Shown piece by piece: positions 647-35,500 of a DNA stretch of 64,000 bases; within the stretch, counting starts at the first letter, position 1, and every line of letters starts with the position of its first letter. Both the position numbers and the translations under genes were made by a program. The notes under the pieces are model-generated. The model saw nothing but the letters and a program-made list of their open reading frames with translations. It had not been told where the DNA came from and did no database searches. Source of the DNA: Lentisphaeria bacterium (GTDB lineage Bacteria; Verrucomicrobiota; Lentisphaeria; Victivallales; Victivallaceae); the NCBI GenBank assembly GCA_017508385.1, contig JAFVZB010000068.1, positions 124,001 to 188,000 of the forward strand, written 5' to 3'.

Positions 647-1939
647 ATGGAAAAAATCACTCAACTTCATCCAAGCGAGCAGATCGTTGAATTCATGAAC
701 CGCATCTATCAGAATGCGATGACCACCACAAGCGGCGGCAATCTTTCGATTCTTGATTCAGACGGAAACATGTGGATCAGTCCGGGAAGTGTTGACAAGG
801 GAACTTTGCGCATCGAAGATATCGTCTGCGTCAAAGCTGACGGCTCGATCGAAGGACGTCACAAACCCTCTTGTGAGTACCCCTTTCATCGTGCCATCTA
901 CCGTCGCCGTCCTGATGTGAGTGCCATTTTGCACGCACACTCCCCTGCCCTTGTCTCTTACAGTATCATCGGAGGTTTGCCCGATACCAATATCACTCCG
1001 CTTACAGCAAAGGTTTGTCAGGAGCCGGGATTCGCTCCTTACGCTGTTCCCGGCAGTGAGGCTCTCGGTGAAAAAATTTCCTGCTGTTTCAGCAAGATGT
1101 ATAACACCATCCTGCTCGAAAACCATGGAACCTGCAACGCAGGAATCTCTCTCATGCAGGCATACAAGCGTTTCGAGACTCTCGATTTCTGCGCCAGAAT
1201 GCTGCTCGGAGCAAAGCACCTCGGTAAGGTGAACTCACTTTCTGATGAGCAACTTGCCGAAGCCGCCGTTGACCGAAACGGCAAGTTTTCTGCTGCCGAG
1301 TTTGAGGTGAGTTCAAGTGTCGAGCGTGATATCCGCTCCAGGATGGTCAAACTCATCCGTCGTGCGTACAGCCAGAAACTCTTTACTTCAGTCTGCGGAA
1401 CCTACGCCGCGAGAGTCAACGCCGATACTTTCATCGTCACTCCTGACGATATCGACCGTGCCACCATCGAAGAGAGTGATCTCGTTCTGGTCAAAGGGTT
1501 CGAGTACGAAGCCGGAAAAGAGCTGCCGGCAAGTGCATGGCTCATCAAAAAGATTTTTGACACCAGAAGTGAATTCAACTCTCTCATCATCGCAGCTCCT
1601 CCGAGCGTGATGGCTTACAACATCACCGACACAAAGTTTGACCCGAGAGTTATTCCGGAGAGTTATCTGCTGCTCCGTGAGATGCCCTCTTTTGAGTTCG
1701 GAGCTTACTACAACTCAAACAGTGTGCTCGATACCCTCTCGATGCGCAACCCGATCATCATGGTCAAAAACGATTGCGTCATCTCTTCGGGCAGAACTCT
1801 GCTCGAGTCATTCGACCGTCTGGAAGTCGCTGAATACAGTGCCCGTGCCACCATCGCCGCAGTTCCCTTCGGAGGAATGAAACCGATGAATCAGGAGCAG
1901 GTTGCAGAAATCGTTGAGGCATTCAATCTCATTCCGTAA
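647..1939 (+). CDS. Tandem class II aldolase/adducin-domain protein
   Basis: A 430-residue protein made of two class II aldolase/adducin-type domains; single-domain members such as fuculose- or rhamnulose-phosphate aldolase are about 210-270 residues. Domain 1 (about 1-195) keeps the family signatures: TSGGNLSI and SPG phosphate-binding regions, the metal-binding HAHS motif and a second histidine in ENHGT. Domain 2 (about 220-430) follows the same order but AAPPS replaces HAHS and KND replaces the NHG histidine, so it should not bind the catalytic zinc. An AAGGA Shine-Dalgarno precedes the ATG. It follows a glycoside hydrolase gene by 15 bp. Likely role: sugar-phosphate cleavage with a structural or regulatory second half; exact substrate unknown. 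Confidence 0.75.
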   Translation: MEKITQLHPSEQIVEFMNRIYQNAMTTTSGGNLSILDSDGNMWISPGSVDKGTLRIEDIVCVKADGSIEGRHKPSCEYPFHRAIYRRRPDVSAILHAHSPALVSYSIIGGLPDTNITPLTAKVCQEPGFAPYAVPGSEALGEKISCCFSKMYNTILLENHGTCNAGISLMQAYKRFETLDFCARMLLGAKHLGKVNSLSDEQLAEAAVDRNGKFSAAEFEVSSSVERDIRSRMVKLIRRAYSQKLFTSVCGTYAARVNADTFIVTPDDIDRATIEESDLVLVKGFEYEAGKELPASAWLIKKIFDTRSEFNSLIIAAPPSVMAYNITDTKFDPRVIPESYLLLREMPSFEFGAYYNSNSVLDTLSMRNPIIMVKNDCVISSGRTLLESFDRLEVAEYSARATIAAVPFGGMKPMNQEQVAEIVEAFNLIP

Positions 1940-9055: not shown

Positions 9056-9955
9056 ATGGTTATAGGAATATTTGCTGCGGCTCTCTGCGCCCTGCTCCAA
9101 TCTTTCAGCTACATATCGAGTGCCGCTTTCATGAAACGATACAACTCATCGTTCAAGCTGATGGTCTATTCGCAGCTGGCGATGGGAGTGGTGAGTGTTC
9201 CTCTTTCCATAATATTTTTTCCTGCCGGATTGTTCAAAGATATTCCGCTTCTCATCGGATTCATGGTATTATGGGTGGCAGTGACGTGTTCCGGTCAATT
9301 CCTGTTTTTTGCCACTCAAAAACACATTGAATCCAGCCGTTTATCCTCGCTTCTCGGATTGAAAATCGTTGTGCTCGCCATCACAACTGCTCTCTTTTTC
9401 GGAGAAAAAATATCACTGCTTCAGGTGATTGCAATTATCCTTGCCACCTCAGGAGCCGTTGCTATAAATGGAGGAGTCTCCACCAGAAAAGTAACGCTTA
9501 TCGCCGTACTCTATCTTATGGGAGCAATTCTCTCGTACTGTTTTGCCGATTTGATGGAAACCAAACTTATGAAGTTGTCAAACAGCGGCAACATCTGGCT
9601 GGATGGCCTCGGTGTCTGTGCGACCTGTTATGTTTTACTGGGGATATGTATGCTTCCACTGCTCCGCAAAGTTGGTTTCTCTTTTGAGCAGCTCACATAC
9701 GGTTCTCCCTACGGAGTGCTCTATTTTTCGTCTCAGGTAGCTCTCTTCGTCTCTTTCGGAGCTATTGGTCCGGTGTTTGCAAATGTCATTCAGTCCAGCC
9801 GCGGAATAATCTCGGTAATCATCGGAATCGTACTCGGCAGGATGGGATTTGCGGCTCTTGATGCAAAAGGAGATCGCAGACTTTGGGTGCGGCGCATGAT
9901 TTGTGCTGTAATCATGACTTCGGCTATTATAATTTACGCACTATCTTCAAGATGA
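9056..9955 (+). CDS. EamA/DMT-type membrane transporter
   Basis: A 299-residue, very hydrophobic protein with about ten predicted membrane helices in two similar halves, the drug/metabolite transporter pattern (for example GIFAAALCALLQSFSYISSA, then LSSLLGLKIVVLAITTALFF with GEK, and a second-half GPVFANVIQSSRGIISVIIG). Substrate unknown. AAGGATG lies upstream of the ATG. Its last 119 bp are duplicated at 11094-11212, and its stop lies 3 bp from the end of a convergent chimeric gene. Confidence 0.8.
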   Translation: MVIGIFAAALCALLQSFSYISSAAFMKRYNSSFKLMVYSQLAMGVVSVPLSIIFFPAGLFKDIPLLIGFMVLWVAVTCSGQFLFFATQKHIESSRLSSLLGLKIVVLAITTALFFGEKISLLQVIAIILATSGAVAINGGVSTRKVTLIAVLYLMGAILSYCFADLMETKLMKLSNSGNIWLDGLGVCATCYVLLGICMLPLLRKVGFSFEQLTYGSPYGVLYFSSQVALFVSFGAIGPVFANVIQSSRGIISVIIGIVLGRMGFAALDAKGDRRLWVRRMICAVIMTSAIIIYALSSR

Positions 9956-10049
9956 CAACTATTTCAACAGTGTATTTACACTGACCGGATGCGCTTTTTC
10001 AACGTCGGAAAATTCAGTTGCTGACATAGTCGAAATTGAAGAGTCAAGC
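9835..10049. repeat. 215-bp direct repeat, copy 1 (host junction)
   Basis: It spans the 3' end of the transporter gene and the last 29 codons plus stop of the convergent gene. It matches 11092-11306 at 211 of 215 positions by hand alignment. Here the leftward reading frame continues into phage-like DNA at 10050. Confidence 0.95.
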
Positions 10050-10987
10050 TTGTATTCCAGAATATTGTCATAAAGCCAGTTATCTCTTTTTGCCCGCCTT
10101 GCAGCCAGAGCAGCCAGATGTTTTCTTCTGACGATTTCGAGAGCGAAATGGGAAGCATCATCCGGAGAAACATTTTTAACGCCCCGGGATGCGAGATAAT
10201 CCGCATACTCCTCCCGGTCGCGCTCGACCACATCTCCGACAAACGGAGAGAGGATATCCATGATATTGCGCTGTTTTTCCTCCGAAAAATCCGCAATCGA
10301 AAACCGGAATTCTTCAGCACTTGCATTTTCAGAAAATTGTGGTATATTATCTATGAAGTTGGAAATAGTCATAGTTGCTGAGCCTCCTTTATGGAGGGCA
10401 GTTTTCGAGGGTTGTAGTACCCGTGGCTGTTCCAACTTTATGTCATTGTAATTAGACGCCGTTATTTTGAATACCGAGCGGATGTGATTTGCATTTTCAG
10501 CAGTTTGTGATATATTAATACCATCAGCCGGAAGAGCAGAAAATCTGCCTGCTGCCCCCGTTTGGGTAATGATGGTTTTCGGCAGTCCATCCCGGTTGAT
10601 TTTTCTTATCATTCCGTTTTGTTTTTCTGCCCTTGAAATTTTTTGTTTAAGTTGCCTGTTGCCAATATAGTGATAGTTGACAATTTCATATTGTCCTTTA
10701 TTTTCACTAATCTCAATCAAGGCTTGTTTGTTTATCTCTCCTCTCGAAACAAGCATGAAGTAATCAGGCTTTTCTTTGGGATTTGGTTGAATTATGAGGT
10801 CGCAATTATATATTGCATTGCCCAGAATATTAATAATATCACTTTCTGAAAGATCAGAATGTATTTTATTTTTCTCAACTATGTTCTGTTTTAATACCAG
10901 TGGTTTTTCTGTTTTATTTAATTCAGATAAAATTTCTTGCGGCAATGCTTGTAATCTAACATCTTTATCAGGATTGACATTGCGCAC
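9959..10987 (-). CDS. Chimeric gene: nuclease-like domain + phage polyvalent segment + host protease tail
   Basis: A 342-residue frame beginning GTG at 10987 with no clear Shine-Dalgarno and a stop codon 14 codons upstream. Three parts: residues 1-165 are unique in the window and look like a phage Barnase/EndoU/ColicinE5/RelE-type (PBECR) nuclease domain (core YEIVNYHYIGNRQLKQKISR, then RDGLPKTIITQTG); residues 166-313 match the giant phage protein encoded at 34259-34702; residues 314-342 are the C-terminus of the neighbouring GYF/trypsin-like protein (SVNTLLK end). An in-frame ATG at 10372 with a perfect AGGAGG could make a 137-residue shorter product. It may be a decayed fusion rather than a functional gene. 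Confidence 0.65.
   Translation of the reverse strand: MRNVNPDKDVRLQALPQEILSELNKTEKPLVLKQNIVEKNKIHSDLSESDIINILGNAIYNCDLIIQPNPKEKPDYFMLVSRGEINKQALIEISENKGQYEIVNYHYIGNRQLKQKISRAEKQNGMIRKINRDGLPKTIITQTGAAGRFSALPADGINISQTAENANHIRSVFKITASNYNDIKLEQPRVLQPSKTALHKGGSATMTISNFIDNIPQFSENASAEEFRFSIADFSEEKQRNIMDILSPFVGDVVERDREEYADYLASRGVKNVSPDDASHFALEIVRRKHLAALAARRAKRDNWLYDNILEYKLDSSISTMSATEFSDVEKAHPVSVNTLLK
10049..10492. repeat. 444-bp segment homologous to prophage 34259-34702
   Basis: Near-identical to the resident prophage segment at a constant offset of 24210 bp, with roughly twenty hand-counted substitutions and no gap. Homology stops sharply after GATGTGATTTGC at 10492, beyond which the two coding frames encode different upstream domains. 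Confidence 0.95.
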
Positions 10988-11091
10988 ATTTTGAAAAACA
11001 AGGCTTGAAAAAAGCCTGTTTCAGTGATTGATTATTGTTACCACACATACAATCAACAACCTAAAAAGTGCGCAAAACTTCGGACACTACC
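10050..11091. mobile_element. 1.04-kb phage-derived insertion between host direct repeats
   Basis: This segment lies between the two 215-bp host repeats. It holds prophage-homologous DNA (10050-10492) and about 600 bp found nowhere else in the window. No transposase, inverted terminal repeat or short target duplication is visible. The geometry (repeat - insert - repeat) is what a single crossover with a circle carrying the 215-bp host piece would leave. An assembly artefact is an alternative. Confidence 0.6.
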
Positions 11092-11306
11092 CGGCAGGAT
11101 GGGATTTGCGGCTCTTGATGCAAAAGGAGATCGCAGCCTTTGGGTGCGGCGCATGATTTGTGCTGTAATCATGACTTCGGCTATTATAATTTACGCACTA
11201 TCTTCAAGATGACAACTATTTCAACAGTGTATTTACACTGACCGGCTGCGCTTTTTCAACGTCGGAAAATGCAGTTGCTGACATAGTCGAAATTGAAGAA
11301 TCAAGC
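11092..11306. repeat. 215-bp direct repeat, copy 2
   Basis: Second copy of 9835-10049 with four substitutions. Here the leftward frame is the intact 3' end of the GYF/trypsin-like gene, while the rightward transporter end is only a remnant. Confidence 0.95.
11094..11212 (+). pseudogene. Duplicated 3' fragment of EamA transporter gene
   Basis: It encodes only the last 39 residues of the transporter (GRMGFAALDAKGDR to IIIYALSSR) with one Arg-to-Ser change. No start codon or upstream helices belong to it; the short frame running into it from 11024 is fortuitous. Confidence 0.9.
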
Positions 11307-12355
11307 AGATTTGAGTCGGTAATCATTCCGATAACTCTGCCGTCGAGCAACAGCAGCGGAGCTCCTGAGATGTTGCCGGCGACAGGAATATCACAAGTTA
11401 TGTTGCGGCCCGTTTCAACAGTTGACTCCATGATTTTGCCACATTTGGCGAAAAACACAGGAAGTCCGTCACTGTTCTTTTTCATTCCGACACAGCCGAT
11501 AAGAGCTCCCGGCATAATATGCGCTACGGTCGTTGGATCTGCCTGCTTGAAAAAGATATCTCTCCTGCCGCTTATCCGGTACATGGCAATGTCGCATCTT
11601 GGATTTTGAGAGTTGGCTGACGGATGTATTCTAACTGATTTTACAACTGATGCATTGGCAGTACCATGATGATTGATGTAAATCCGTTTGATTTTCAAGC
11701 CGTTATTCACTGCGTTTCTGAGTTTTTTGACTCCATCAGCGTTGACACTGCAAAACTCCCTGAAGTCCGAATAAGAGCTTCTGCTTTTGACGTAGGCACT
11801 GTTCACCGCCTCAAAGACAATGTTGTTCGACATCTCGGCGGATATGTTTTTCAGTGAGTCCAATCTGCTCCAGGTTGACACATAGACATCGGGAGCAACC
11901 GCAAATGCGATATCAAGAGTCAACTCTGAATCGGTATCGAGTCCGGATACACCGGCAAGAGAATCACCGTTTCGGGCGACAAGCTCAACAGTAAGCAATC
12001 CGACTGCACTGTGATATTTGTCTGCGATATTTTTAAATTCCTGTTCAGGAGCAAGTTCCCGGTCTGAACGCAGATAGAACCACCAGTAAGCTCCGGCAAC
12101 TCCGGCGGCAAGAAAAAGCAAGAGCAGAAACGAACTGATAAATCTGCCGAAAACACTGTTTTCTTTCCGATTTGAAGTTGGAACAACTTGCTTTTGATCA
12201 GAATTGATAAAATAAATCAGAGAAATCCATTCGGATTTGTCACAAGAAACTTCGGCGTTGACCGAGAAAAAACCGCGGTCATAAGCTGACACAAGGCGGC
12301 TCTTTTCTATCGGACCGAATAATTTTTTGTCATCCCGGACGTAATATCTTTTCAT
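11216..12355 (-). CDS. GYF-domain, membrane-anchored trypsin-like (probably inactive) protein
   Basis: A 379-residue protein starting at ATG 12355 (MKRYYVRDD), preceded by GGAGGTGATAAA and overlapping the previous stop as ATGA. Residues 1-55 look like a GYF_2 domain (YYVRDDKKLFGPIEKSRL); one membrane helix at about 95-115 (FLLLLFLAAGVAGAYWWFYL); the rest is a trypsin-like fold. The Asp (CDIAMYRI) and Ser (GNISGAPLL, for GNSGGP) regions are recognisable, but the TAAHC/TNAHV position reads VSTWSRLD, so the catalytic His appears to be missing. It is translationally coupled to the 798-residue membrane protein upstream; the two probably act together at the envelope. Function unknown. Confidence 0.65.
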   Translation of the reverse strand: MKRYYVRDDKKLFGPIEKSRLVSAYDRGFFSVNAEVSCDKSEWISLIYFINSDQKQVVPTSNRKENSVFGRFISSFLLLLFLAAGVAGAYWWFYLRSDRELAPEQEFKNIADKYHSAVGLLTVELVARNGDSLAGVSGLDTDSELTLDIAFAVAPDVYVSTWSRLDSLKNISAEMSNNIVFEAVNSAYVKSRSSYSDFREFCSVNADGVKKLRNAVNNGLKIKRIYINHHGTANASVVKSVRIHPSANSQNPRCDIAMYRISGRRDIFFKQADPTTVAHIMPGALIGCVGMKKNSDGLPVFFAKCGKIMESTVETGRNITCDIPVAGNISGAPLLLLDGRVIGMITDSNLLDSSISTMSATAFSDVEKAQPVSVNTLLK

Positions 12356-14748
12356 TTTATCACCTCCGCAACAGGCAGGAATGCCGGCCACCGCAATTTG
12401 AAGTTGCTTCCGGATATCTTTTCAGTCACCTCTTTGTGCAATTCCGAGAGCTTTACTGCCGGAGCAAAAACAAAAAGTATTCTGGTTCCGGGAGAAAATT
12501 CAAAACGCCCGGATATCTTGAGCTTTCCGTCAACAACACTGCCGAACTTCACGCATCCACTGCCCGACTCGTCGAAACAGAAAACGTCTCCGGAATAACT
12601 GCTCATTTCAGAAAGCTGACGGATATTATCTTTGAATGATATTCCGAAAAAACGGTAACGGAGTTTTGATGCTTTTTCCATCAACTCATACTGCAGCTGA
12701 TTGTTTTTCGCGTGCTCGTACAGAGACGGGAAGTCAACTTTACTGATGTAGTCTGCAATAAGTTTTCTATCCGGATTTTTCCGCAGTGCTTCAAGCTCAT
12801 CGTACATGGCTGATATTTTGCGGTCAGAGGTAACTTCTGCCATTTTTGCATTTTGGAGCATGGCAGCTGAAAGAGCGATTTTCCAGTACGGAGCGCAGAG
12901 TGTGTCTTTGAATATCATTTCCATAAATTCAATTGATTTCGGTATCAGCTCAGCTTGAGACAATCCATCTGTTGAGTTTAAGATGAACTCGGCAAAAGTC
13001 TGGTGACGCGCCCGTGATATTTTCAGGATGTTTTTATTCAGTGTTGCCGGGTAAGCCAGAGCACAGCGGTTGAATTTGCGTTTTCCGACAACAACGGTAT
13101 AAACGTAGAAGTTCCTGCCGACACGGACTATTTTGACCGGAGTGCCGTTCTCTGTTCTGAAATGCAGCTCGTTATCTATTTCAAGAATGTTGCTGCCGGA
13201 AACGTATATATCTATGTTTTCTCCTGACAGCTCCTCTTTCATGCGGATAAAACCAAGCTGATTGTTTTCAAACTCGCTGTGCAGTTTTGCAAATGATTCC
13301 CTCAGGCGTTTTTCTGCTCTCTCGCGGTCTCTTTGCGCGGATATAAATGTGTTATACTCACGCACAAGTGCGAAATCAGACGGAGTTGTTGAGAGATTTT
13401 TCTGCCCGTTGATAATACGTTTCAAAAGCGCAGTTTCACGGAGCAGAGCCGCACAGTGGGAGGTGGTATTATTGAAAGAGTTTGCGCTTGCTCCGGCAAG
13501 TTTTTTCAACTCTTCTTCGAGCATATCCAGATCGGAAACAGTAAACGCTGATGTGTTGTCAAAAAAGAGATGCTCCCAGCGTTTGGCATTGGATATCAGC
13601 TTTGACAACTCTGAAACAGAATTCAAAAGCTCAATATCCTCCTTTGCCGCATACTTTTTGATATCACTGCCTTTCAGTTTTCGGGCGTTTTCCGCAAGCT
13701 CTCTGAATTCCAGTGCTGCCTGTTCAAACTCACTGTTGATGATGTGAGAAAGCACTCTTTCCCGGCAAGATCGCAAACCGGATATCTTCTCTGAATAAAA
13801 GTGACGCATTGAAGCCCGATGATTTTCTTCGGCTATCCGGAACCAGTCGCGCAATGTTTCCAACTTCATTTTTTCGACATCACTTCTCACAAGTCCGGCA
13901 AGGCGGACGAAATACTTATCTCCCCTGACTCCGGGATGCCATTGAGATTTGATGTTTTCGAGCTGTTTTATGGTGCGGTTCACTGCATAGATTCGGTCAC
14001 GCTCCAACTTTTCTGCTTTTGCGATCGATGATTGCGCTTTGACAACAACCGGATGTTTGAGCAGCTCGGGATGTTTTCCGGAAATAACTGCGAGTATTTT
14101 TTTCGCACTTTCCATATCAGACCGCACAAATGCGTTATGGAGTTTGGAAATAAGATTTCTGTCATACTGACGTTTTTCAATGCTTTGCATCACCATCACT
14201 GTTCCGCCGAAAACCATTACAGCAATGAGCGCATAAAAAAGAATTTTCAAGGTACGCTTCAATGATTTTACACGCCCGTTTTCCTGTCGGATATCGACAT
14301 CATCTTCATCATCAATATCTTCATCAACAAGCTCCCGGGGAAACTCAGATGCAATCGTGCTCCCGGCAGGTACGCTGTATTCAGGAGTCGAAGCTGACAT
14401 ATCGTCTGACTTTCCGTTCAACATGTCACGCAACTCAGCCGTTTGCTGATGAGTTATCTCATTGAACATCTTCCAATTGTAAAGAAACACGATACGGCTC
14501 AACAATTTGCGTTCAGGGAAAAGCAGATACTCCGCCATGCCGAAGAGTTCAGGTTCACGCATTGCCAGCGCAAGTGCATCCTGCCTATTTTGACTTTTCA
14601 ACAGCTTCGAGCACTCCGCAAGGCGAATGCTGCATGAGTTATTCTGTTCAAGAAAAATTTCGTAACAGGCTCTGAGTTCGTCGGAATCAGTTAAGTCCTG
14701 AGAGTTGAGCAGGTTTCTGAGTTTATCTGTATTGTACCGGTAATCCAT
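12352..14748 (-). CDS. Large single-pass membrane protein of unknown function
   Basis: A 798-residue protein I do not recognise. Residues 1-165 are soluble with an acidic linker (DEDIDDEDDVD); one membrane helix at about 167-188 (ILFYALIAVMVFGGTVMVM); then about 600 residues, mostly charged helices and likely coiled coil. Near the end is a small beta-rich segment (GSVVDGKLKISGRFEFSPGTRILFVF). Stop and start of the next gene overlap (ATGA). Only 49 bp separate its ATG from the prophage end; before integration its upstream neighbour was the tRNA-Leu gene in the same direction, so the prophage now separates it from that promoter region. Confidence 0.6.
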   Translation of the reverse strand: MDYRYNTDKLRNLLNSQDLTDSDELRACYEIFLEQNNSCSIRLAECSKLLKSQNRQDALALAMREPELFGMAEYLLFPERKLLSRIVFLYNWKMFNEITHQQTAELRDMLNGKSDDMSASTPEYSVPAGSTIASEFPRELVDEDIDDEDDVDIRQENGRVKSLKRTLKILFYALIAVMVFGGTVMVMQSIEKRQYDRNLISKLHNAFVRSDMESAKKILAVISGKHPELLKHPVVVKAQSSIAKAEKLERDRIYAVNRTIKQLENIKSQWHPGVRGDKYFVRLAGLVRSDVEKMKLETLRDWFRIAEENHRASMRHFYSEKISGLRSCRERVLSHIINSEFEQAALEFRELAENARKLKGSDIKKYAAKEDIELLNSVSELSKLISNAKRWEHLFFDNTSAFTVSDLDMLEEELKKLAGASANSFNNTTSHCAALLRETALLKRIINGQKNLSTTPSDFALVREYNTFISAQRDRERAEKRLRESFAKLHSEFENNQLGFIRMKEELSGENIDIYVSGSNILEIDNELHFRTENGTPVKIVRVGRNFYVYTVVVGKRKFNRCALAYPATLNKNILKISRARHQTFAEFILNSTDGLSQAELIPKSIEFMEMIFKDTLCAPYWKIALSAAMLQNAKMAEVTSDRKISAMYDELEALRKNPDRKLIADYISKVDFPSLYEHAKNNQLQYELMEKASKLRYRFFGISFKDNIRQLSEMSSYSGDVFCFDESGSGCVKFGSVVDGKLKISGRFEFSPGTRILFVFAPAVKLSELHKEVTEKISGSNFKLRWPAFLPVAEVIK

Positions 14749-14886: not shown

Positions 14887-15999
14887 TCAAACCAATTTAA
14901 CCAAATTATCCAATTCAACAGCGGGCAGCTGCTGCACCATGCGGGCTGTATGTAAATCGTGACTGTAGAGATCAGTCTGTTCATCCGAGACATGTCCCAC
15001 AATGCCGCGTATAGCATGTCGGGGAATACCTGCAGCATCGCAACGAGTCACAAAGCTATCCCTGAAACTGTTGAAATTAACGATTCCCTGTTCAGTAGCG
15101 GTTATTCCCAGCTTGGCAAGAAGCGAGGCAAAACTTTCGTTAAACTGCTTTCTGCTCAGTTGCCATGCCCCCAGCACTTCAGGAGATACATGCGGCAAAG
15201 TGCTCAAAACTGCAGCCAACTGCGGATGTACTGGAATTTGAACAGACCTGCCGAAACGAGCTGTCTTCGCCGGAGTTGTGGTAATGACATCAGAACTGAT
15301 AAGATCCCAGCGCAACTTGAATACATCCTTTTTGCGTAACCCGGTAAACCATGCTATAAGAGAAGCTGTCTTCCATGGCTCAGGAGCAGCTGAATAAATT
15401 CGCTTGAACTCCTCTTCGGTGAACGGTCGCTGGTGTATTGTATCGAGTTTGCGGTTGACTATCTTGCTGAACGGAGAATCTTCCATACCTGACTCAAGCA
15501 GTGTCAATCTGAAAATAGTATGCAAAGCCGATTTTGTATTATTGAAATTTTTGCCGCTTCTGCAGTTCTCATCAAGATAGCGAAAAGCATCTTGGGCTGT
15601 TACTTCGTCCATGTAAATAAAGTTTGTCTGCCGGATAAACTTGTTCCAAATTCCGACAGCTGAATATCCCTGCTTACGATACTTGCCGGCAACCTCAAGC
15701 GCATCTGTTAATTTGAGCCTTTTTCTTCTTTTATCTCTTGTGATCACGGGCAAATCCTTTGCCGGGCACAGCCCTGCCTCAATATCCAGGCGGATCATGT
15801 GGGCAGTTGCCTTCTGGTGGAGACGTGCAGCGGCATTCTTCCGCATAAGTTCTGCTTCCATTGCCCGTGCAGCCAACAAATCATCGGTCCCGAGATTGAC
15901 TGTTCTGGTCGCATATTTCAGCGTTCCGTCCGGACGTGACATCACCGTCCTGAAGTAAGCGCAGTAATATCCTTTTTTTCCTCTTTTACGCAGAGCCAT
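14887..15999 (-). CDS. int: Phage integrase (tyrosine recombinase)
   Basis: A 370-residue tyrosine recombinase lying 56 bp inside the left attachment site, as expected for the enzyme that inserted this phage. An AP2/arm-type N-terminus (RKRGKKGYYCAYFR), SAM-like core-binding domain (about 95-180), and catalytic domain with R222 (TGLRKKD), K245, R313 and H336, and nucleophile Y345 (DLYSHD). The box II HxxR motif reads NSFR, so the usual His is Asn310, a tolerated variation. The start overlaps the end of the next gene by 14 bp. Confidence 0.93.
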   Translation of the reverse strand: MALRKRGKKGYYCAYFRTVMSRPDGTLKYATRTVNLGTDDLLAARAMEAELMRKNAAARLHQKATAHMIRLDIEAGLCPAKDLPVITRDKRRKRLKLTDALEVAGKYRKQGYSAVGIWNKFIRQTNFIYMDEVTAQDAFRYLDENCRSGKNFNNTKSALHTIFRLTLLESGMEDSPFSKIVNRKLDTIHQRPFTEEEFKRIYSAAPEPWKTASLIAWFTGLRKKDVFKLRWDLISSDVITTTPAKTARFGRSVQIPVHPQLAAVLSTLPHVSPEVLGAWQLSRKQFNESFASLLAKLGITATEQGIVNFNSFRDSFVTRCDAAGIPRHAIRGIVGHVSDEQTDLYSHDLHTARMVQQLPAVELDNLVKLV

Positions 16000-16669
16000 T
16001 TGATTTTCTCCTGAAGCTCAAGATTTCCAGAAAAATCAAAAATAAAATTGCAAAGAAATTGCACCGCGACCAAACATCTCTGTCATCGAAACGAACTGGA
16101 ATTACGGGATTATAGATAATAGCTCCTGCAAGCAGCATAAATTTCAAAAATGCGCTGCGCACCCCGAAATACTTCCCGATAAAAGCAACACAGACGCTGC
16201 AGCGCAGCAGCGTGTAAAATCCACTGCTGTACCTTGTTAACATAGCTGATACCATTAATCCAATTGCAGCAATGGAAAAGAAAAAGAAAATTTTCTCATG
16301 TTCGCGCAACGACTTGTATTTTTGAGCAAAAGAGCGAAAAAAAACAAACATCTTCATAAAAGAAACAAACATCTTCATAAAAGAAACAAACATCTTCATA
16401 AAAGAAACCTTCACAAAACATTTTATATTCGTGCAAAATTTTTGTATTGCAAACAATTTTGCACGCAAGACACTTATAAGAAGCAAAATCATGAAAGAAA
16501 AAAACCACAACGCTGTAAAAGAAAAATTATTATTTTCCTGACCTAAATCAAAAGCCAAAGCAACAACAGCAAAAAGAATCAAAAAAAGAATCAAAAAAAG
16601 TATTGAAAAAAAAGAATACGCAGAAATTTCGTGATCATGGCTCTTCATGGTCGCCCCTCCAGACATCAT
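15986..16669 (-). CDS. Prophage membrane protein with 7-residue tandem repeat
   Basis: A 227-residue very hydrophobic protein with four or five likely membrane helices (ILFLILFLILFAVVALAF near the N-terminus). A central FVSFMKM heptad is repeated three times, encoded by three perfect 21-bp repeats. It lies between the integrase and the repressor genes, where temperate phages often carry superinfection-exclusion or lysogenic-conversion membrane proteins. No family recognised. The first ATG gives MMSGGATMKSHD; M8 is an alternative start. Confidence 0.55.
   Translation of the reverse strand: MMSGGATMKSHDHEISAYSFFSILFLILFLILFAVVALAFDLGQENNNFSFTALWFFSFMILLLISVLRAKLFAIQKFCTNIKCFVKVSFMKMFVSFMKMFVSFMKMFVFFRSFAQKYKSLREHEKIFFFFSIAAIGLMVSAMLTRYSSGFYTLLRCSVCVAFIGKYFGVRSAFLKFMLLAGAIIYNPVIPVRFDDRDVWSRCNFFAILFLIFLEILSFRRKSNGSA
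16344..16406. repeat. Three perfect 21-bp tandem repeats
   Basis: The unit ACAAACATCTTCATAAAAGA plus one A occurs three times without change. The length keeps the frame, adding seven residues per copy to the membrane protein; the copy number is likely to vary by slippage. Confidence 0.95.
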
Positions 16670-17013
16670 TTTTCGACCCTTTTCAGGACTTTTATGAATT
16701 TTATTTTTTCTTCAGCAGACAGGGTGTCATCGTTTATAATTTTTTCGACATTTTTCTCGAAATCGCCGCCGCCATTGATGGTCAGATTGGCATGGTCAGT
16801 AGCGATATTAGCCCCATTCAAACTGATTTCCGCATTGGGAAATAACTTAAACAGCGTTTCAAGCTTCATCGTTTCCACTTTTCTTTTCCCTGATAAAAGG
16901 TTGTTGATATATGCATCAGTTAAATTAGCTCTATCAGCAATCTGACGTTGAGTAACCCCCCTTCTCCACTCTGAAAGTAGCAACTCTTGAATTTCCCTGT
17001 AAATCTTTTTCAT
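16666..17013 (-). CDS. Repressor-like HTH protein, paralog 1 of 3
   Basis: 115 residues. An N-terminal Xre/Cro-type helix-turn-helix (GVTQRQIADRANLTDAYINN, then LLSGKRK), a glycine/asparagine-rich beta-like linker (SLNGANIATDHANLTINGGG), and a C-terminal helix SAEEKIKFIKVLKR. The same three-part layout recurs in the two genes upstream. It overlaps the membrane protein gene by 4 bp. Position between integrase and the divergent early promoter indicates an immunity or lysogeny role. Confidence 0.72.
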   Translation of the reverse strand: MKKIYREIQELLLSEWRRGVTQRQIADRANLTDAYINNLLSGKRKVETMKLETLFKLFPNAEISLNGANIATDHANLTINGGGDFEKNVEKIINDDTLSAEEKIKFIKVLKRVEK

Positions 17014-17031
17014 ATAACCTTAGAGTTTTTG

Positions 17032-17397
17032 TCACACATTTTCTAAAAATTTCAAGAACTTTATTTTCTCGTCAGCAGAAAAACTATCATCGTTCAATAA
17101 TTTCGCTCTGATTTTTTCCGCGCAACTTTTGTCCTGGTTAAAAAAATTATTGCTTCCATTTACTGCGCCTACATTCATTCCACCGGAATTGTTGTTGGCA
17201 CTCCCACCCAGAGAGACGACTGCGCCAGGAAAAACCTTCATAAGCGTATCGACAGAAAGGTTCTTAGGCAAACGGGAACCGTTAATAGCATGAGCTATTA
17301 CCGAAATGGATATGCCTGTCCGTTCCTTCATTTCCTTATACGTCATACCTTGAGAATACATCTCTCTCAGCCGTTCAACAACTTCTTTCTCGTACAT
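17032..17397 (-). CDS. Repressor-like HTH protein, paralog 2 of 3
   Basis: 121 residues. HTH region GMTYKEMKERTGISISVIAH, then AINGSRLP; linker rich in Gly/Asn/Ser (GGSANNNSGGMNVGAVNGSN); C-terminal SADEKIKFLKFLENV nearly identical to paralog 1. All three share the phrase L-F/M-K-(L/V)-FP-(N/G/D)-A after the HTH. Same strand and 18 bp from paralog 1. Confidence 0.72.
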   Translation of the reverse strand: MYEKEVVERLREMYSQGMTYKEMKERTGISISVIAHAINGSRLPKNLSVDTLMKVFPGAVVSLGGSANNNSGGMNVGAVNGSNNFFNQDKSCAEKIRAKLLNDDSFSADEKIKFLKFLENV

Positions 17398-17452
17398 AAA
17401 ACCCTTCGATTTTGTTGAAAAAAATACACCTGATTATTAAAAAAACAAGTTT

Positions 17453-17797
17453 TCATTTTCTCAACACCTTGAGTACCTTTACTTTTTCAGCATCGGACAA
17501 CTCATCGGATGTGAGAATTTTATTTATAGCATCGTTGTTGTCATTCGTGGATATGCTTTTTATTTTTCCGCCGTTATTCACAACGTTAGTGAAATTCCCC
17601 CCCGAAAAAGTCAAAGTCGCATCAGGAAACAACTTGAAAAAAAAATCAAGAGAAATACCCGACACTGCTCGCTTGCCATTCAAAAGGTTGTGCATATGCG
17701 TGTACGAAATACCATATTTATCCGCCAGCTCCTTGTATGTTGCTCCGGACTCATACTCTTGCCTGAGAACTTCAATTATTTTTCTATATACGTCCAT
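17453..17797 (-). CDS. Repressor-like HTH protein, paralog 3 of 3 (operator-proximal)
   Basis: 114 residues from ATG 17797 (MDVYRKIIEVL), which has AGGAGG six bases upstream; longer frames to 17857 lack this. HTH GATYKELADKYGISYTHMHN, then LLNGKRA; FKLFPDATLTFSGGN linker; C-terminal SDAEKVKVLKVLRK. It is nearest the divergent early promoter, so it is the best candidate for the phage repressor proper. Confidence 0.75.
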   Translation of the reverse strand: MDVYRKIIEVLRQEYESGATYKELADKYGISYTHMHNLLNGKRAVSGISLDFFFKLFPDATLTFSGGNFTNVVNNGGKIKSISTNDNNDAINKILTSDELSDAEKVKVLKVLRK

Positions 17798-17828
17798 ATC
17801 ATCCTCCTGTGGCATAAGATACAGTAAT

Positions 17829-17893
17829 TTTCCACTTTTTTCCACTTTATTACACAAAAAACACTTGACTTTATCTCAAAAGAGATATACATT
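17829..17893 (+). promoter_or_regulatory. Divergent immunity-region operator and early promoter
   Basis: TTGACT (17865-17870) and TACATT (17888-17893) are 17 bp apart, a good sigma-70 promoter toward the early genes. The spacer is a perfect inverted repeat, TATCTC-AAAA-GAGATA (17872-17887), ideally placed for repression. Just upstream TTTTCCACTTT occurs twice in direct orientation (17829-17850), a possible second operator. Confidence 0.75.
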
Positions 17894-18169: not shown

Positions 18170-18198
18170 GCCATCTGTATGGAAAAGGCTGATGCACC
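18170..18198. repeat. 29-bp direct repeat, copy 1
   Basis: Exact match to 18646-18674. This copy lies in the 115-bp gap between the ribbon-helix-helix gene and the next gene, where a short unassigned frame (from 18143) reads AICMEKADAPKV. Confidence 0.95.
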
Positions 18199-18234
18199 AA
18201 AAGTAAACACAATCCACAAAAGGAAACCACCATT

Positions 18235-19017
18235 ATGCAGGAAGAGAGAAATTACATGGTACCATTGTCGCGTGATGAGTTGCTTACGGCTGCCGAAATT
18301 GCCGCTATGCTCACAAATGCGATCGAAGAGAAAAAAGCTGTATTCATTGCACAGCGCAACGAGTTCAGAGAAAGTATAAAAAGCCTGAATGAAGAACTCA
18401 GAAATCAACTTGATAAATTAAGCAGCAAGCGTGAACTCCGACTGGTCACGCTTGACATCGAATATAATACTCCCGAAGAGGGAAAGAAAACTATTATGGA
18501 TGCCAAAACCGGTGTAGTATATGACATTGTCGCCATGACCGATGAAGATAAAGAAAACCTTTTTGCGCAGCCGCTTCAAAATGAAAGTGATGATTCAGTC
18601 AGGCGCAGACGTGGCATTCCGGAATGGCAAGGCAACCCGATGAGTGCCATCTGTATGGAAAAGGCTGATGCACCGGAAGTATGCGCAGTCTGCAAAGAGT
18701 GCCATAGCGTGCTGCATATCGATCGGGAAAAGCCAATATGTGGAAATTGCCGTGAACGCAAAAACAAACCAAACCTCGAGGCCATCGAGAGACTGAAAAA
18801 CTATTGGAACAGCCGCGGCAGCACAGCGCCTAAATTCAGAGCTGCATTCGGTCACGGATGCAGTTCCCCAAAAAGAGACACCACTTGCTTCCGCTTCATG
18901 CTGCCATCCGGCAGCTGGGGAAATCCGGTGTACCTTGCCGGAGATTATACATATACAGGCAGTCAAGCTGAGTCATATTACCGGGAACTCAAAAAGGAAG
19001 GATGGGCAGAGGGATGA
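18235..19017 (+). CDS. Phage early protein with zinc-ribbon motif
   Basis: A 260-residue protein, function unrecognised. The N-terminal 80 residues are helical/coiled coil (ESIKSLNEELRNQLDKLSSK). A treble-clef or zinc-ribbon-like cluster CAVCKEC...CGNC sits at about 150-175. The C-terminus has CSSPKRDTTCFRF and ends in ELKKEGWAEG. AAAGGA precedes ATG 18235; M8 (18256) is an alternative. The stop overlaps the next ATG (ATGA). Confidence 0.55.
   Translation: MQEERNYMVPLSRDELLTAAEIAAMLTNAIEEKKAVFIAQRNEFRESIKSLNEELRNQLDKLSSKRELRLVTLDIEYNTPEEGKKTIMDAKTGVVYDIVAMTDEDKENLFAQPLQNESDDSVRRRRGIPEWQGNPMSAICMEKADAPEVCAVCKECHSVLHIDREKPICGNCRERKNKPNLEAIERLKNYWNSRGSTAPKFRAAFGHGCSSPKRDTTCFRFMLPSGSWGNPVYLAGDYTYTGSQAESYYRELKKEGWAEG
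18646..18674. repeat. 29-bp direct repeat, copy 2 (coding)
   Basis: Exact copy of 18170-18198, here coding AICMEKADAPE just before the zinc-ribbon cysteines, in the same reading frame as the short upstream frame. Confidence 0.95.
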
Positions 19018-23548: not shown

Positions 23549-23772
23549 TCCACATCTGCATCGACATTCCCGGCACCGGATTATGCGCAATAATAGACCG
23601 CCACAACTGTACTGCCGAGCTGTTCTGCGGAATGTACTGGGCAGTCAAAAAAATGTGGAAATACGAAACTGGAATATCTGTTGAGCCGATATTTGCCGGT
23701 GGCTTTGTTTACATCGACGACAACGGCAGTTGCCGCCGCAGAATAGGGAGCTATCGCTTATGCCAGGGATGA
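23542..23772 (+). CDS. Small early protein (76 aa)
   Basis: ATG 23542 (MLIHICIDIPGTGLCAIIDR), with GGAGATGGAG just upstream. Beta-rich with several cysteines, ending RRRIGSYRLCQG. Overlaps the second recombinase gene by 13 bp. No family recognised. Confidence 0.5.
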   Translation: MLIHICIDIPGTGLCAIIDRHNCTAELFCGMYWAVKKMWKYETGISVEPIFAGGFVYIDDNGSCRRRIGSYRLCQG

Positions 23773-24389
23773 GATCACTTCCATTGCCGGAAGTCCTGCA
23801 GTTGCTCGATGAACTTCCTGCCAAATATGCCTGCCTGGCTGCAATAGGCGTAACGACAGGCTGCAGGATTACCGAATTGCTTTTGTTGCAGCGGCATGAT
23901 TTATTGGAGCGTGATGGAACATTAAAAAGGGAAATCGCCTTTGTAAAACTGAAATCGAAAAAACTGATCCACCGCAAAATGATGATTCCCGAGGATTACC
24001 ATCCGTACATTCTGCGCCATCTGCAGGAAGAGGAGCAGCGTGGCTACGATATGCCGCACAACTATGTTTTCCGCGGCAAACTTGGCAAGCCGCTGTCACG
24101 GATAACAGCATATAACAGATTTCGCCGGCTGCTTGGCAGTGGATACGGAACACACTGGATGCGAAAAACTTTTGCTCAGTCACTTTTCGGATTCTTCCTT
24201 CAGGAAAACCCGAGAGACCCGATGCGCGCCTTGGATCTGACCCGGCGTGCTCTCGGGCATGAGCGACTGGATACGACAGTGAAGTATCTTGGAATACGCG
24301 AAGAAGCAATAGCAACGGCACAAAACAGTGTTTTTAACATAAGGAAAATCAAAAGTGAACAAAGAACCCCTGCGCGTAAACGTTTATAA
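23760..24389 (+). CDS. Second tyrosine recombinase (catalytic domain only)
   Basis: 209 residues from ATG 23760. It carries a full recombinase catalytic set: R36 (TTGCRITEL), K65-68 region (KLKSKK), H132 and R135 (THWMRKTFA), H167 (LGHERLD) and nucleophile Y176 (VKYLGI). There is no arm-binding or core-binding N-terminal domain, so it is about half the size of a normal integrase. It lies near the end of the early operon, 8 kb from the attachment site. Possible roles: resolving genome multimers, controlling integrase, or moving another element. Confidence 0.8.
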   Translation: MPGMRSLPLPEVLQLLDELPAKYACLAAIGVTTGCRITELLLLQRHDLLERDGTLKREIAFVKLKSKKLIHRKMMIPEDYHPYILRHLQEEEQRGYDMPHNYVFRGKLGKPLSRITAYNRFRRLLGSGYGTHWMRKTFAQSLFGFFLQENPRDPMRALDLTRRALGHERLDTTVKYLGIREEAIATAQNSVFNIRKIKSEQRTPARKRL

Positions 24390-30761: not shown

Positions 30762-32588
30762 TTATTTTTCGTTGCTGATTTTGTAAATTTTCCTCGCTTC
30801 TCGTGCAATGGCACCGGCTTGAGCAGCAGGTTTGAGAAAATAACCGGCAGCCTGCAAAAGTCTGACGGCATCAACGTAGGCATTGTCCGATATTTTTTTA
30901 TTCTTCCCTAACTGTCGTTCAACAGCGTAGTATCCCATAATTATATCACTGCTCCAGAAATTGGAAGGCATAAAACCATCCGGCTTGGCAGCACTGATGA
31001 CTTCACTGGCAATTCTGCCGAACGGACCGAATCCGGTGACTGCGTCCGCAAGAACATTAAAAAAGAGCTCGCCCCATTGATACTTGTCATCCTTGTAGTG
31101 CTCCTTCATCTGGTCAAAAACGGTCATGGCGGCACTTGAAAGAATGAGTGCTGCAATTCCCCTGACAGCTTTTTTTAACGGAGCCGTTTTTCCGTAGTGC
31201 ACACTTTTGTATATGGCTGAAGCGTAGTTGTTCCAGAGCAGGATCTGGTTAGAAGTAAAGGTGGTGAAAATTCTGCTTTCTGCGCCGCCACGTTGGAACT
31301 TATTCAGCAGAAATGGAGCACTCGACTGCTGGGTGCGCTCAGTAGCCATTTCCCATTTCTGCAGAGCCTCTCTTCTTGCCTGAGCATGATCCATGCCGAA
31401 TTTCACAAGATTGTCATAATGATACTTGTAAACAGCAAACCCGCCAAAAAGCACACTTGCGGCATCGCCGAGACGCAGCGGCAGAGTGCTTATATTATCC
31501 ACAGCATCGAAAAAAACCGACGCCATCGAAGCATCCCGACCGGAAGCATCGAGGAGCAGTCGCAAATCTGCATTAGCTCCGGAATTCCAGCGAATACGGA
31601 AATAATCAGTATTGCCGAGAGTCCGCCACACCTCCTTCGGGTGAGCAGCGGCATAAGCCATGCCTTTGGCGAGAGCATCAGGTGGAATTTCCTGCAAATA
31701 ACTTATTGCACCCATAGTTTGCTTGATACCCGAAATAACATTGGCAGCCATTTTTGAGCGCACCGCATTGCCATAGATTTTGGAAACCATACTGTTGACA
31801 TCGACATCGATATTCCCGCCGTTAATAAAATCCTGCAAGGCAGTTTTCAGTTCCTGATACGCAACAATACCATGCTCGGATTCAATCGCGTTTTTCACGT
31901 CGCTGCTGAGCAGAACGGAGCGCATTTTTCTTGCTGCAGCGGCATGAGTAACGAAGTGATTCATCATCAGGCGGTGATTCTGGAACACCGTAAGAGCATC
32001 TGTATCGGAACGGATTGCTTTCAGGTGGTAAACACGCACCTTGAGTGCACCTGGAGTGTAAGCGACAGCACCGGCAGCGGAACCCGGCTGAGCAATATCG
32101 ACACTCTGACCATTGACATTGTTTCCGGATACTTTGTAAACAGCCGGGAAATAATTATCCTCTTTGGGGAACTCGGCAAAATACATCTGCCGGTAAACCT
32201 CTTCGATCCGGCTTCTGTCGGCTTCCAGCTGAGAGCGCATCCAGGCACCGAACGCTTTGACTTCAGGAAGCAGGAATTTATCAATCTGCTGCATAGTTTC
32301 CTGAGTATATCCGTTGTAGTGCATTTTGAAGCGGATATCTTTCTGATCCCACATAAGTTTAAGGTAAAGAGCCTGCATCTGCGTAAGCGGCACCTCCTGC
32401 GACGCACCATTGAAAGTCTGCCGTGGAATAATCACGACCGGCTCTTTACTGCCCTCGTTTTCCGCTCTTATTATTTTCATGAGTTGATCAGTTGCTCCGT
32501 CTCTGAACTCTTCCGGGACATCATATTTTATTTTGCGGTCAAGAGTTGAAAGTTGCTGGCGAATAGCCTCCGCCTCATAATCGGGCAT
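30762..32588 (-). CDS. C-terminal part of giant internal virion/ejected protein (separate or frameshifted)
   Basis: 608 residues. Helical, with hydrophobic stretches (AVRGIAALILSSAAMTVF) and a C-terminal YFLKPAAQAGAIAREARKIY typical of the ends of phage internal virion or polyvalent ejected proteins. Its ATG has no Shine-Dalgarno, unlike most other late genes, and it begins inside the preceding ORF in the -1 frame right after an A7 run. It is most simply read as the continuation of that ORF. Confidence 0.68.
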   Translation of the reverse strand: MPDYEAEAIRQQLSTLDRKIKYDVPEEFRDGATDQLMKIIRAENEGSKEPVVIIPRQTFNGASQEVPLTQMQALYLKLMWDQKDIRFKMHYNGYTQETMQQIDKFLLPEVKAFGAWMRSQLEADRSRIEEVYRQMYFAEFPKEDNYFPAVYKVSGNNVNGQSVDIAQPGSAAGAVAYTPGALKVRVYHLKAIRSDTDALTVFQNHRLMMNHFVTHAAAARKMRSVLLSSDVKNAIESEHGIVAYQELKTALQDFINGGNIDVDVNSMVSKIYGNAVRSKMAANVISGIKQTMGAISYLQEIPPDALAKGMAYAAAHPKEVWRTLGNTDYFRIRWNSGANADLRLLLDASGRDASMASVFFDAVDNISTLPLRLGDAASVLFGGFAVYKYHYDNLVKFGMDHAQARREALQKWEMATERTQQSSAPFLLNKFQRGGAESRIFTTFTSNQILLWNNYASAIYKSVHYGKTAPLKKAVRGIAALILSSAAMTVFDQMKEHYKDDKYQWGELFFNVLADAVTGFGPFGRIASEVISAAKPDGFMPSNFWSSDIIMGYYAVERQLGKNKKISDNAYVDAVRLLQAAGYFLKPAAQAGAIAREARKIYKISNEK

Positions 32589-35500
32589 ATTTTTTTGCCT
32601 GCATCATAATTTTGGAGCATAACTCTTGCCTGGTCAACAGACAGACGTTCATACTCGAACTGCCTTGCATCCGGATCAGGAACAAACCGTTTGACCCCTG
32701 TTTGCACTTGGATTTCCCGCCATTTTCCTATTTTTTCGGCAATGGTGAATGGTGATTTTGTTTTCAGTAATTTTTTCAAAAACTCATGACAGTCATCAGA
32801 GTTGGATGAATTGAGCACATCTTTTGCAAGTTTAGCCTCGTGAGCCATTTGCCTGAAACGGTTGACAACATTTTCATCATTGGCAAAAAGAGCCATTGCT
32901 TCAAGCATACCGTCAAAACTCAAGCTCTGCCAGAAAGTTTTATCAAGATTTTTTTTAGCTCTGGCAGATTTTGTATTTTTGTCTGCCAGAGTTTTTTGTT
33001 CGATATCGTTGTAACGCCTGCCGCCGTTGACGGCACGCCATAACTCGTTGCGGTCGTATTCATCATCGGCAGCACGCTTATTTATTTCTGCGAGCAGATT
33101 GTCTTTGCCGGATCTGGCAAGCATTTGCAGATGTTCAAACGCCGTATTTACTTCGCCTGCGCTCTTATTCCAGAGCGTGCCATACCTGTTGAGCAGAGCT
33201 ATATCGTACTCGAGTTCAGAGGTATCTGCCCCGAGAGACAGTAACTCTTCAATCTTTTTTTGATTTTCGGTTATTGCCATGTTGAGACTTCCGGCATCGA
33301 GACGGGATATCGCAATAATTCTGTTGAGTCGCCTCTGCGTGTCGATATCCCGCATACCTCGCACCCTGCGCCCGGAATCGGTTCTTTCACCAAGCTGCTG
33401 CAGCCGCTTGGCTATTTTGTCGAGCAGCTCAGTTTTCCTTACTTCCGCTGCCCGTTCAGTCATTCTGGCAATAATTTTGTCAAACTCTGTTTTGCGGCGT
33501 CCCTCGGGAAACCTTGCGCTGGGAGCATTGGAGTATTCAAGCAATCCGACAATGTTCCGCACAAATTCGCTCTGATTGGCTTTTGGCAGATTTTTCTGAG
33601 CGAAAGCGACAGCCTCACGCTGAAGCCTGACAGCATCAGTCATACTGCTGAGAACCTTTTCCCTGAGCTCTTTGAGTTTTCCGCTGTACTGCTGCCATGC
33701 TTTTTCTTTGGCATCCTTAAAAGCCTGTGCATAAACATCAGCATTGCCGCTCTCCTGAACGAGAGCCATATTTATTGCTTCGATATCCGCCTGACTTGGA
33801 GTGTAAGGCGGATTTCTGTCAGGAAAAATCTTTTTGTAAAGCTCTTTGAAAACATCTCTGTTTTCGTTTATCCACTGCTCATTGACGACCGGCTTACCGT
33901 CGGAGAAAATTTGAACGATTTCATCCTGTATTCGGAATTTTTCCTGCTCAAGAAACTCCTCTTTTGCCTGCCGGTCGGCATCCCGGTCGGCAGCAATCAT
34001 CTCTTTGCGGTATTTCGTGTATTCTTTTCTCAGTTCGACCCAGGTCAAATCATTGTAAAAGTCGAAGAGCTGCTGTTCGATATCGAGCTCATTACCTCCG
34101 ATTTCGTCGGCGACATACCTTGCCAGTTCATCGAGATTGATAACCGGAGTACCTTTGTCCTTTTTGCCGAGCCAGAAAGTTCCTGAAGTATCTTTTCCCC
34201 GAAACCTGGGAGAGAGCTTGATTTGGAAACTGGAAGAGCCGGAAAAATCCACCGCCCACTTGTATTCCAGAATATTGTCATAAAGCCAGTTATCTCTTTT
34301 TGCCCGCCTTGCAGCCAGAGCAGTCAGATGTTTTCTTCTGACGATTTCGAGAGCGAAATGGAAAGCATCATCCGGAGAAACATTTTTAACGCCCCGGGAT
34401 GCGAGATAATCCGCATACTCCTCCCGGTCACGCTCGACAACATCGCCGACAAACGGAGAAAGGATATCCATGATGTTGCGCTGTTGCTCCTCAGAAAAAT
34501 CCGCAATAGAAAACCGGAATTCTTCAGCACTTGCATTTTCAGAAAATTGTGATATATTATCTATGAAGTTGGAAATAGTCATAGTTGCTGAGCCTCCTTT
34601 ATGGAGGGCAGTTTTCGAGGGTTGTAGTACCCGTGGCTGTTCCAACTTTATTTCATTATAATTAGACGCCGTTATTTTGAATATAGAACGGATGTGATTT
34701 GCCTGACCTTTGATGTCAGGATTTATCTCAATACGATAGATGTCTCCTGTAACTTCATCAAAACCGACAAACGATATATTTCCTTTAATATCGGCAACCT
34801 GTTCAGGTTTTGCCAATACTAACTCGACAGCGGCTCTGGTCTCTTGTGGATTTTTGAAATACCGATAATGTCTTGAATAAAGAAATTCATAATCAGCATA
34901 TAATGACTTTCCTTTGAGTCCAGCCCATTCCATGAAACCGTCAGCATGCGGAACATGCCCATCAACCAATTTTCCTTTTTGTTCTGCATTATTGGGATCG
35001 CCTTGTTTGCGTAATGCGGCAAACCTCAGCCCGTCCTGACCGTCAACATCTAAGTTTTGCTTATCTGTTGCAGTGTTTACTGTGACGACCGAACTCTCTC
35101 TGCCGAAGCGGTTGCGCCGGACTTTGCGTGAAGCCCTGGCAAGAAGAGTCTCGATCTGATTGTCGGACATACGAAACTCTTTTCCGAAAACTTTGGCAAA
35201 CGCCATGCGTACCTTCTGGAGAACCTCCTTCCACCACTTTGGCTTTACTTTTGTTTCGGCGATGTGAGCAATGTACTCTTCTGCTGCGAGCCGCTGGTCA
35301 CCGATTTTATCGAGCGAGATATCGAGATATGGCACACCATCTTCATCAACCAGTTCGACGGGCTTAAAATACTTGGCTGCAATATCCTTGAAAGACTGCT
35401 CCTGACAGTGGTCACGATACACCTGATCCAGAACGGAGTCGAGGTCTGCACCCTTCAACACTGAACGCAGCCCCTTGTGACCGACAACTTCATGCAGAAT

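Follow-up and report, generated by a model that had tools for sequence, protein, structure and literature searches.

The window, meaning the whole stretch of 64,000 nucleotides analysed here, came from the genome of a Lentisphaeria bacterium. From left to right, the locus contained a transporter gene, a 215 bp host sequence, joint A, a phage gene piece, joint B, an IS remnant, joint C, the 215 bp sequence again, and a GYF/trypsin-like gene. The features are listed in Table 1, together with the resident prophage of the window.

Table 1. Features of the locus and of the resident prophage (window coordinates)
Feature	Position	Strand	Details
Host EamA-family transporter gene, intact	9056-9955	+	Pfam EamA 4e-8
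Repeat copy 1, 215 bp	9835-10049		211/215 to copy 2
Chimeric ORF, phage N-part + 30 host codons	9959-10987	-	Open frame; host stop at 9959
Truncated in-frame phage polyvalent-protein fragment	10050-~10979	-	96% to prophage; no stops in 312 codons
LPD13 domain (PF18825)	10637-10975	-	Profile positions 23-136 of 139
IS256-family remnant	10976-11091	+	Right terminus ...GTGCGCAAAACTTCGGACACTACC intact, ending at 11091
Repeat copy 2, 215 bp	11092-11306		First base directly after IS terminus
Host GYF/trypsin-like gene, intact	11216-12391	-	Trypsin_2 E 0.0026, below cut-off
Resident prophage	14797-50720		44 bp att-like repeats, right one in tRNA-Leu
Prophage stretch matching fragment	34259-34702	-	Within polyvalent gene 32528-37357

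Comparison of the window with itself showed that the two 215 bp copies formed a direct repeat, identical at 211 of 215 positions, with the copies 1257 bp apart and a spacer of 1042 bp (10050-11091). The pair was the second-longest repeat family in the window. The four mismatches were at 9880/11137, 9989/11246, 10014/11271, and 10043/11300, and the longest identical run was 108 bp. This comparison agreed with the preliminary description, which had placed two such copies across convergent host gene ends. The repeat match and the prophage match described below were far beyond chance. Four apparent extra matches ahead of the copies (9831-9834) were attributed to chance; 9834 and 11091 differ, and 11091 is the last transposon base.

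Both flanking genes were intact. The left copy completed the transporter gene, of which the last 121 bp fell within it, and the right copy completed the GYF/trypsin-like gene, of which the last 30 codons lay inside it. Copy 1 thus contained the transporter 3' end and the last 30 codons of the convergent gene. The transporter orthologue in a related genome (G015) was 70% identical and had the same upstream context, but the gene convergent to it was another one, and the GYF-like gene lay on a separate contig. The GYF/trypsin-like gene had distant homologues in same-genus genomes, with about 22–31% identity, and a search of the genome contigs for the GYF-like gene gave a distant match only. Neither an empty site nor a second strain was found in the relatives' genomes or in this search. 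For the polarity of the four repeat differences, the C-terminus of the GYF gene was unalignable in relatives, and the transporter site was ambiguous.

The region was searched in 60 related genomes, and many matches to 10976-11059 and 11064-11092 were found. In G016 (L022:1057-2503), these two segments were the ends of a full element of 1447 bp. Its transposase had 403 residues and was of the Mutator type (Transposase_mut, DDE; PF00872, E 8.5e-109). Because the full copy carried this PF00872 transposase, the remnant was assigned to the IS256 family. The terminal inverted repeats of the element had fixed ends. In many genomes, insertions at unrelated sites broke off at identical terminal bases, left and right, and these insertions placed the right terminus exactly at 11091. 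The right terminus ACACTACC stopped at this base, and repeat copy 2 opened at 11092. Compared with the full IS, the remnant had lost about 12 bp of its left terminus and nearly all of its interior.

IS256 members normally yield 8 bp target duplications and move via circles (PMC7780238). No 8–9 bp target duplication was present at the insert, and none was visible at two-ended copies in relatives either. The remnant contained no transposase gene, and a transposase of IS256 type was not found in the window's genome (86% complete) by a search run without a positive control. It had been stated earlier that short target duplications, inverted repeats and transposase were all lacking. The absence of a transposase gene and of an 8–9 bp duplication was borne out, but the statement did not hold for the IS256 end at 10976-11091. 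The remnant was filed as a degenerate IS256-family derivative, not a normal insertion. Other unrelated flanks of the same IS family had no long direct repeats within the flanking DNA examined, so a long duplication was not a habit of the element. A candidate second IS copy at G000:C75 was rejected, because the match was only 17 bp long, due to chance, and located within a reading frame of no relation. Short, internally deleted IS derivatives with two ends, about 100–260 bp long and MITE-like, were observed at L086 (G030:C122), L087 (G008:C149), and L088 (G045:C17). The G030 derivative measured about 103 bp and that of G045 260 bp, and target duplications were not visible.

The phage part of the spacer had been described as 443 bp nearly identical to the resident prophage. 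The near-identity was confirmed: 10049-10492 aligned with prophage positions 34259-34702 over 444 bp without gaps, with 17 mismatches and 96% identity. The extent was not, since the open frame and the LPD13 domain extended the phage part to about 930 bp. LPD13 occupied residues 5–117 of the reverse-strand frame and scored 64.6 bits against a curated cut-off of 27. Its N-terminal part was absent; the profile match opened at position 23 and was cut at the IS border. A region 43% identical to it in G041 began earlier in the profile and lay within an open frame of 2332 codons. Downstream, LPD13 continued without a frame shift into DNA that shares 96% identity with the 1609-aa ORF of the prophage, and the joint with the prophage-shared stretch lay between ...ENA and NHIRS....

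LPD13 is one of the domains of large phage "polyvalent" proteins, a class described in PMC5512222. The 1609-residue protein of the resident prophage had a different domain in the place of LPD13. In G016, of the same genus, the prophage-type domain was found on the same linker, and in G032 yet another domain was found ahead of the same downstream part. Because the domains differ on the same scaffold in G016 and G032, the insert looked like an ordinary domain variant of a phage polyvalent gene. The codon differences between fragment and prophage were 11 synonymous and 6 nonsynonymous. This is the pattern of two phage genes diverged under selection, and the fragment had therefore not been copied recently from the resident prophage. 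By sequence comparison, the source was a phage related to the resident prophage and carrying a different domain, a point missed in the preliminary description; the resident prophage itself was set aside in view of LPD13 and the 17 differences. No relatives of the phage fragment or of the polyvalent protein were found in viral contigs and phage records. An orphan piece of the same phage polyvalent gene, 354 codons long, was observed in G016:C53 at about 229.3–230.6 kb (L052/L005), between a phosphoesterase-like gene and the contig end. Other phage genes were absent from the stretch examined there, and no IS256 end was seen by eye at its borders.

The resident prophage contained genes for an integrase (14887-15999), a terminase, a head-tail adaptor, and a capsid. 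A second tyrosine-recombinase-like ORF was located at 23730-24389. Three successive similar small ORFs of 115, 121, and up to 134 aa, with a repressor-like helix-turn-helix, were found at 16666-17857 and formed an apparent tandem family. A direct repeat of 51 bp with 84% identity (18170-18220 and 18646-18696, 476 bp apart) was located near the start of the right-facing genes of the prophage.

At the left end of the insert, the phage frame ...NILEYK ran in frame into host LDSSISTMSATEFSDVEKAHPVSVNTLLK. A plausible start of the chimera was the ATG at 10372, with AAAGGAGG upstream, which would give 137 aa with the last 30 residues from the host. A join of this kind is expected to be in frame by chance in about one of three cases. 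The chimeric ORF was proposed to be a by-product of the join, in frame by chance. The frame and the intact gene were real, in line with the earlier claim of a second, chimeric copy of the C-terminus beside an intact one, while a function of the chimeric gene would be speculative. It is very unlikely that IS256-type ends in these bacteria repeatedly capture domain modules of phage polyvalent proteins and paste them beside host genes, and that the host expresses the chimera and benefits from it, for instance in defence against related phages. In the phage linker that encodes PRVLQPSKTALHKGGSATMTISNF, a predicted RNA stem (AAGUUGGAA/UUCCAACUU) closed two hairpins, one of which holds the AAAGGAGG-ATG start, with a z of about -3.5. 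The stem sites were 10355-10450 (-) and 34565-34660 (-) in the window and around 1560-1650 (+) in L005. All three sequences compared, from the fragment, the prophage, and G016 (80% DNA identity), retained the letters of the stem. Comparison of the linker stem with Rfam gave no convincing match.

The three joints differed in character. Joint A (10049/10050) connected host DNA to phage coding DNA with at most 1 bp shared. At joint B, near 10979, phage LPD13 coding DNA abutted the IS interior. At joint C (11091/11092), an exact IS end met host DNA with zero shared sequence. Joint C is of the type that a transposase makes, and joint A of the type that end joining makes. The host stretch between joints A and C was duplicated, as it would be in a target duplication, with 215 bp instead of 8 bp. 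One border was therefore an exact transposon end and the other lay inside phage coding DNA, as in a one-ended insertion; the duplication of 215 bp was not the normal 8 bp of the element. On balance, the structure is probably an IS256-linked insertion with a long target duplication, and it most likely arose when an aberrant one-ended insertion was repaired through the target. The route was termed aberrant and held with moderate confidence because the length of the duplication was abnormal.

In this route, a degenerate IS256-type element would at the start have been located beside a broken phage polyvalent gene. Only one IS end could work, as one-ended events require, because the left end lacked about 12 bp and abutted LPD13 coding DNA. 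The sole intact end, on the right, would have been joined to the host just before CGGCAGGATGGG, near the transporter 3' end, presumably by a transposase. The other border would never have been a transposon end: phage DNA about 930 bp away would have been joined to the host 215 bp downstream. The phage/host closure is present as a joint with 1 bp identity and may have been made by repair and end joining. Because the two joints lie 215 bp apart on the host sequence, the host stretch between them now occurs as two copies, where an 8 bp duplication would be usual. We infer the order of these events; the left truncation and internal deletion of the IS could be later decay. One-ended IS insertions that take along neighbouring DNA are documented, and the experimental cases had target duplications of normal length (PMC3031569). 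The host/phage junction was absent from the 84,980 species genomes searched, and neither the junction nor the IS/host pattern was found in viral contigs; records near the window's genome may have been missing from these collections.

One-ended insertion requires no earlier donor structure at the host site. This point bears on the circle with a single crossover, which had been put forward in the preliminary description. In an amended form of this explanation, a donor of phage DNA, IS end and 215 bp of host DNA was circularised by end joining at 10049/10050 and integrated by one crossover within the shared 215 bp. It produces exactly the observed order, and donor alleles could account for the 4/215 differences. 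Such duplications were present in 56 of 60 recombinants selected in E. coli, measured 109–950 bp in the 14 sequenced, and were attributed to circularised incoming DNA (PMC3240628). However, the proposal had overlooked the IS256 terminus at the start of the repeat. The IS end must already have adjoined this host site in the donor, which is one step beyond one-ended insertion. The circle would give the product and has a laboratory precedent, and as the main rival it is considered possible but rather doubtful. An old duplication followed by gene conversion, also proposed earlier, was not needed and was rejected.

The same pre-made donor joint is required by homology-facilitated illegitimate recombination, in which incoming DNA with phage, IS, 215 bp and GYF sequence recombined by homology on the right and was end-joined to the host at 10049 on the left. 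Given that donor, a single event suffices. Joints with 0–1 nt homology are on record in E. coli (PMC3240628), and a comparable route was proposed for the insertion of modules at T6SS loci of V. cholerae (PMC5361080). This recombination is very rare and typically causes deletion, not duplication, and the explanation is unlikely.

An assembly artefact or strain mixture in this metagenome-assembled genome is quite unlikely, and so is a 1257 bp unit that existed as a free circle or in tandem array and was resolved as one copy. The genome is fragmented (94 contigs, 86% complete), a 108 bp stretch within the repeat is identical, and an independent assembly with the junctions was not found. On the other hand, the joints share 1 bp (host/phage) and none (IS/host), and a false overlap would need more than this. 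With 17 differences from the resident prophage and an LPD13 of its own, the phage piece is distinct, the IS terminus is biologically exact, and the region is well inside a contig of 206 kb. Misassembly was accordingly regarded as unlikely. A further candidate was the remnant of a site-specific element that, in e14/icd style, replaces its target gene's 3' end, the 215 bp repeats then being attachment sites. Direct repeats that span the 3' ends of two genes without disrupting either would fit, but this explanation was rejected as hardly credible: 10050-11091 contains no integrase gene or core attachment sites, the right boundary is the IS256 terminus and not an attachment core, the phage piece derives from the interior of a polyvalent gene, and the related resident prophage uses tRNA-Leu.

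As the repeat begins at the exact end of the transposon, the structure most likely stems from an untidy, transposon-linked insertion; genome accidents of this kind are known, and it is not a new one. A host-phage chimera that seemed to have no mechanism is bordered by a transposon end, and the absence of a nearby transposase is not the absence of a transposon. The locus shows a phage gene fragment fixed between two intact host genes, with neither harmed. It offers, from an uncultured lineage, a small and readable case of IS-linked insertion with long target duplication.

The scaffold of the fragment corresponds to that of phage polyvalent proteins (PMC5512222), in which one scaffold carries exchangeable domains, here LPD13 in the fragment and another domain in the resident prophage; the copy here is truncated and outside any phage. 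"Insertion with long target duplication" was described by Nobusato et al. 2000, as cited in PMC3031569 and PMC11708052. As far as it is presented there, a foreign segment likewise lies between long direct repeats of host sequence, the presumed target; the segments are restriction-modification genes, whereas here the segment was a fragment of a phage gene and one of its borders was an IS end. In the Dup-IS-Dup structure of Pseudomonas fluorescens SBW25 (PMC11708052), an IS also parts two duplication copies without an ordinary target duplication, but that duplication is 60 kb with a complete IS481, compared with 215 bp, an IS256 remnant and phage DNA here. In E. coli, re-circularised DNA that integrated by a single crossover (PMC3240628) also gave duplicated chromosomal flanks of 109–950 bp, from an incoming plasmid with cloned homology and with a border without an IS end. 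The type II products of PMC3031569 (which cites Polard 1994 for IS911), in which an IS inserts by one end and brings adjacent DNA, have one exact IS end and the other border in donor DNA, as in this locus, with a normal target duplication of 9 bp there and of 215 bp here.
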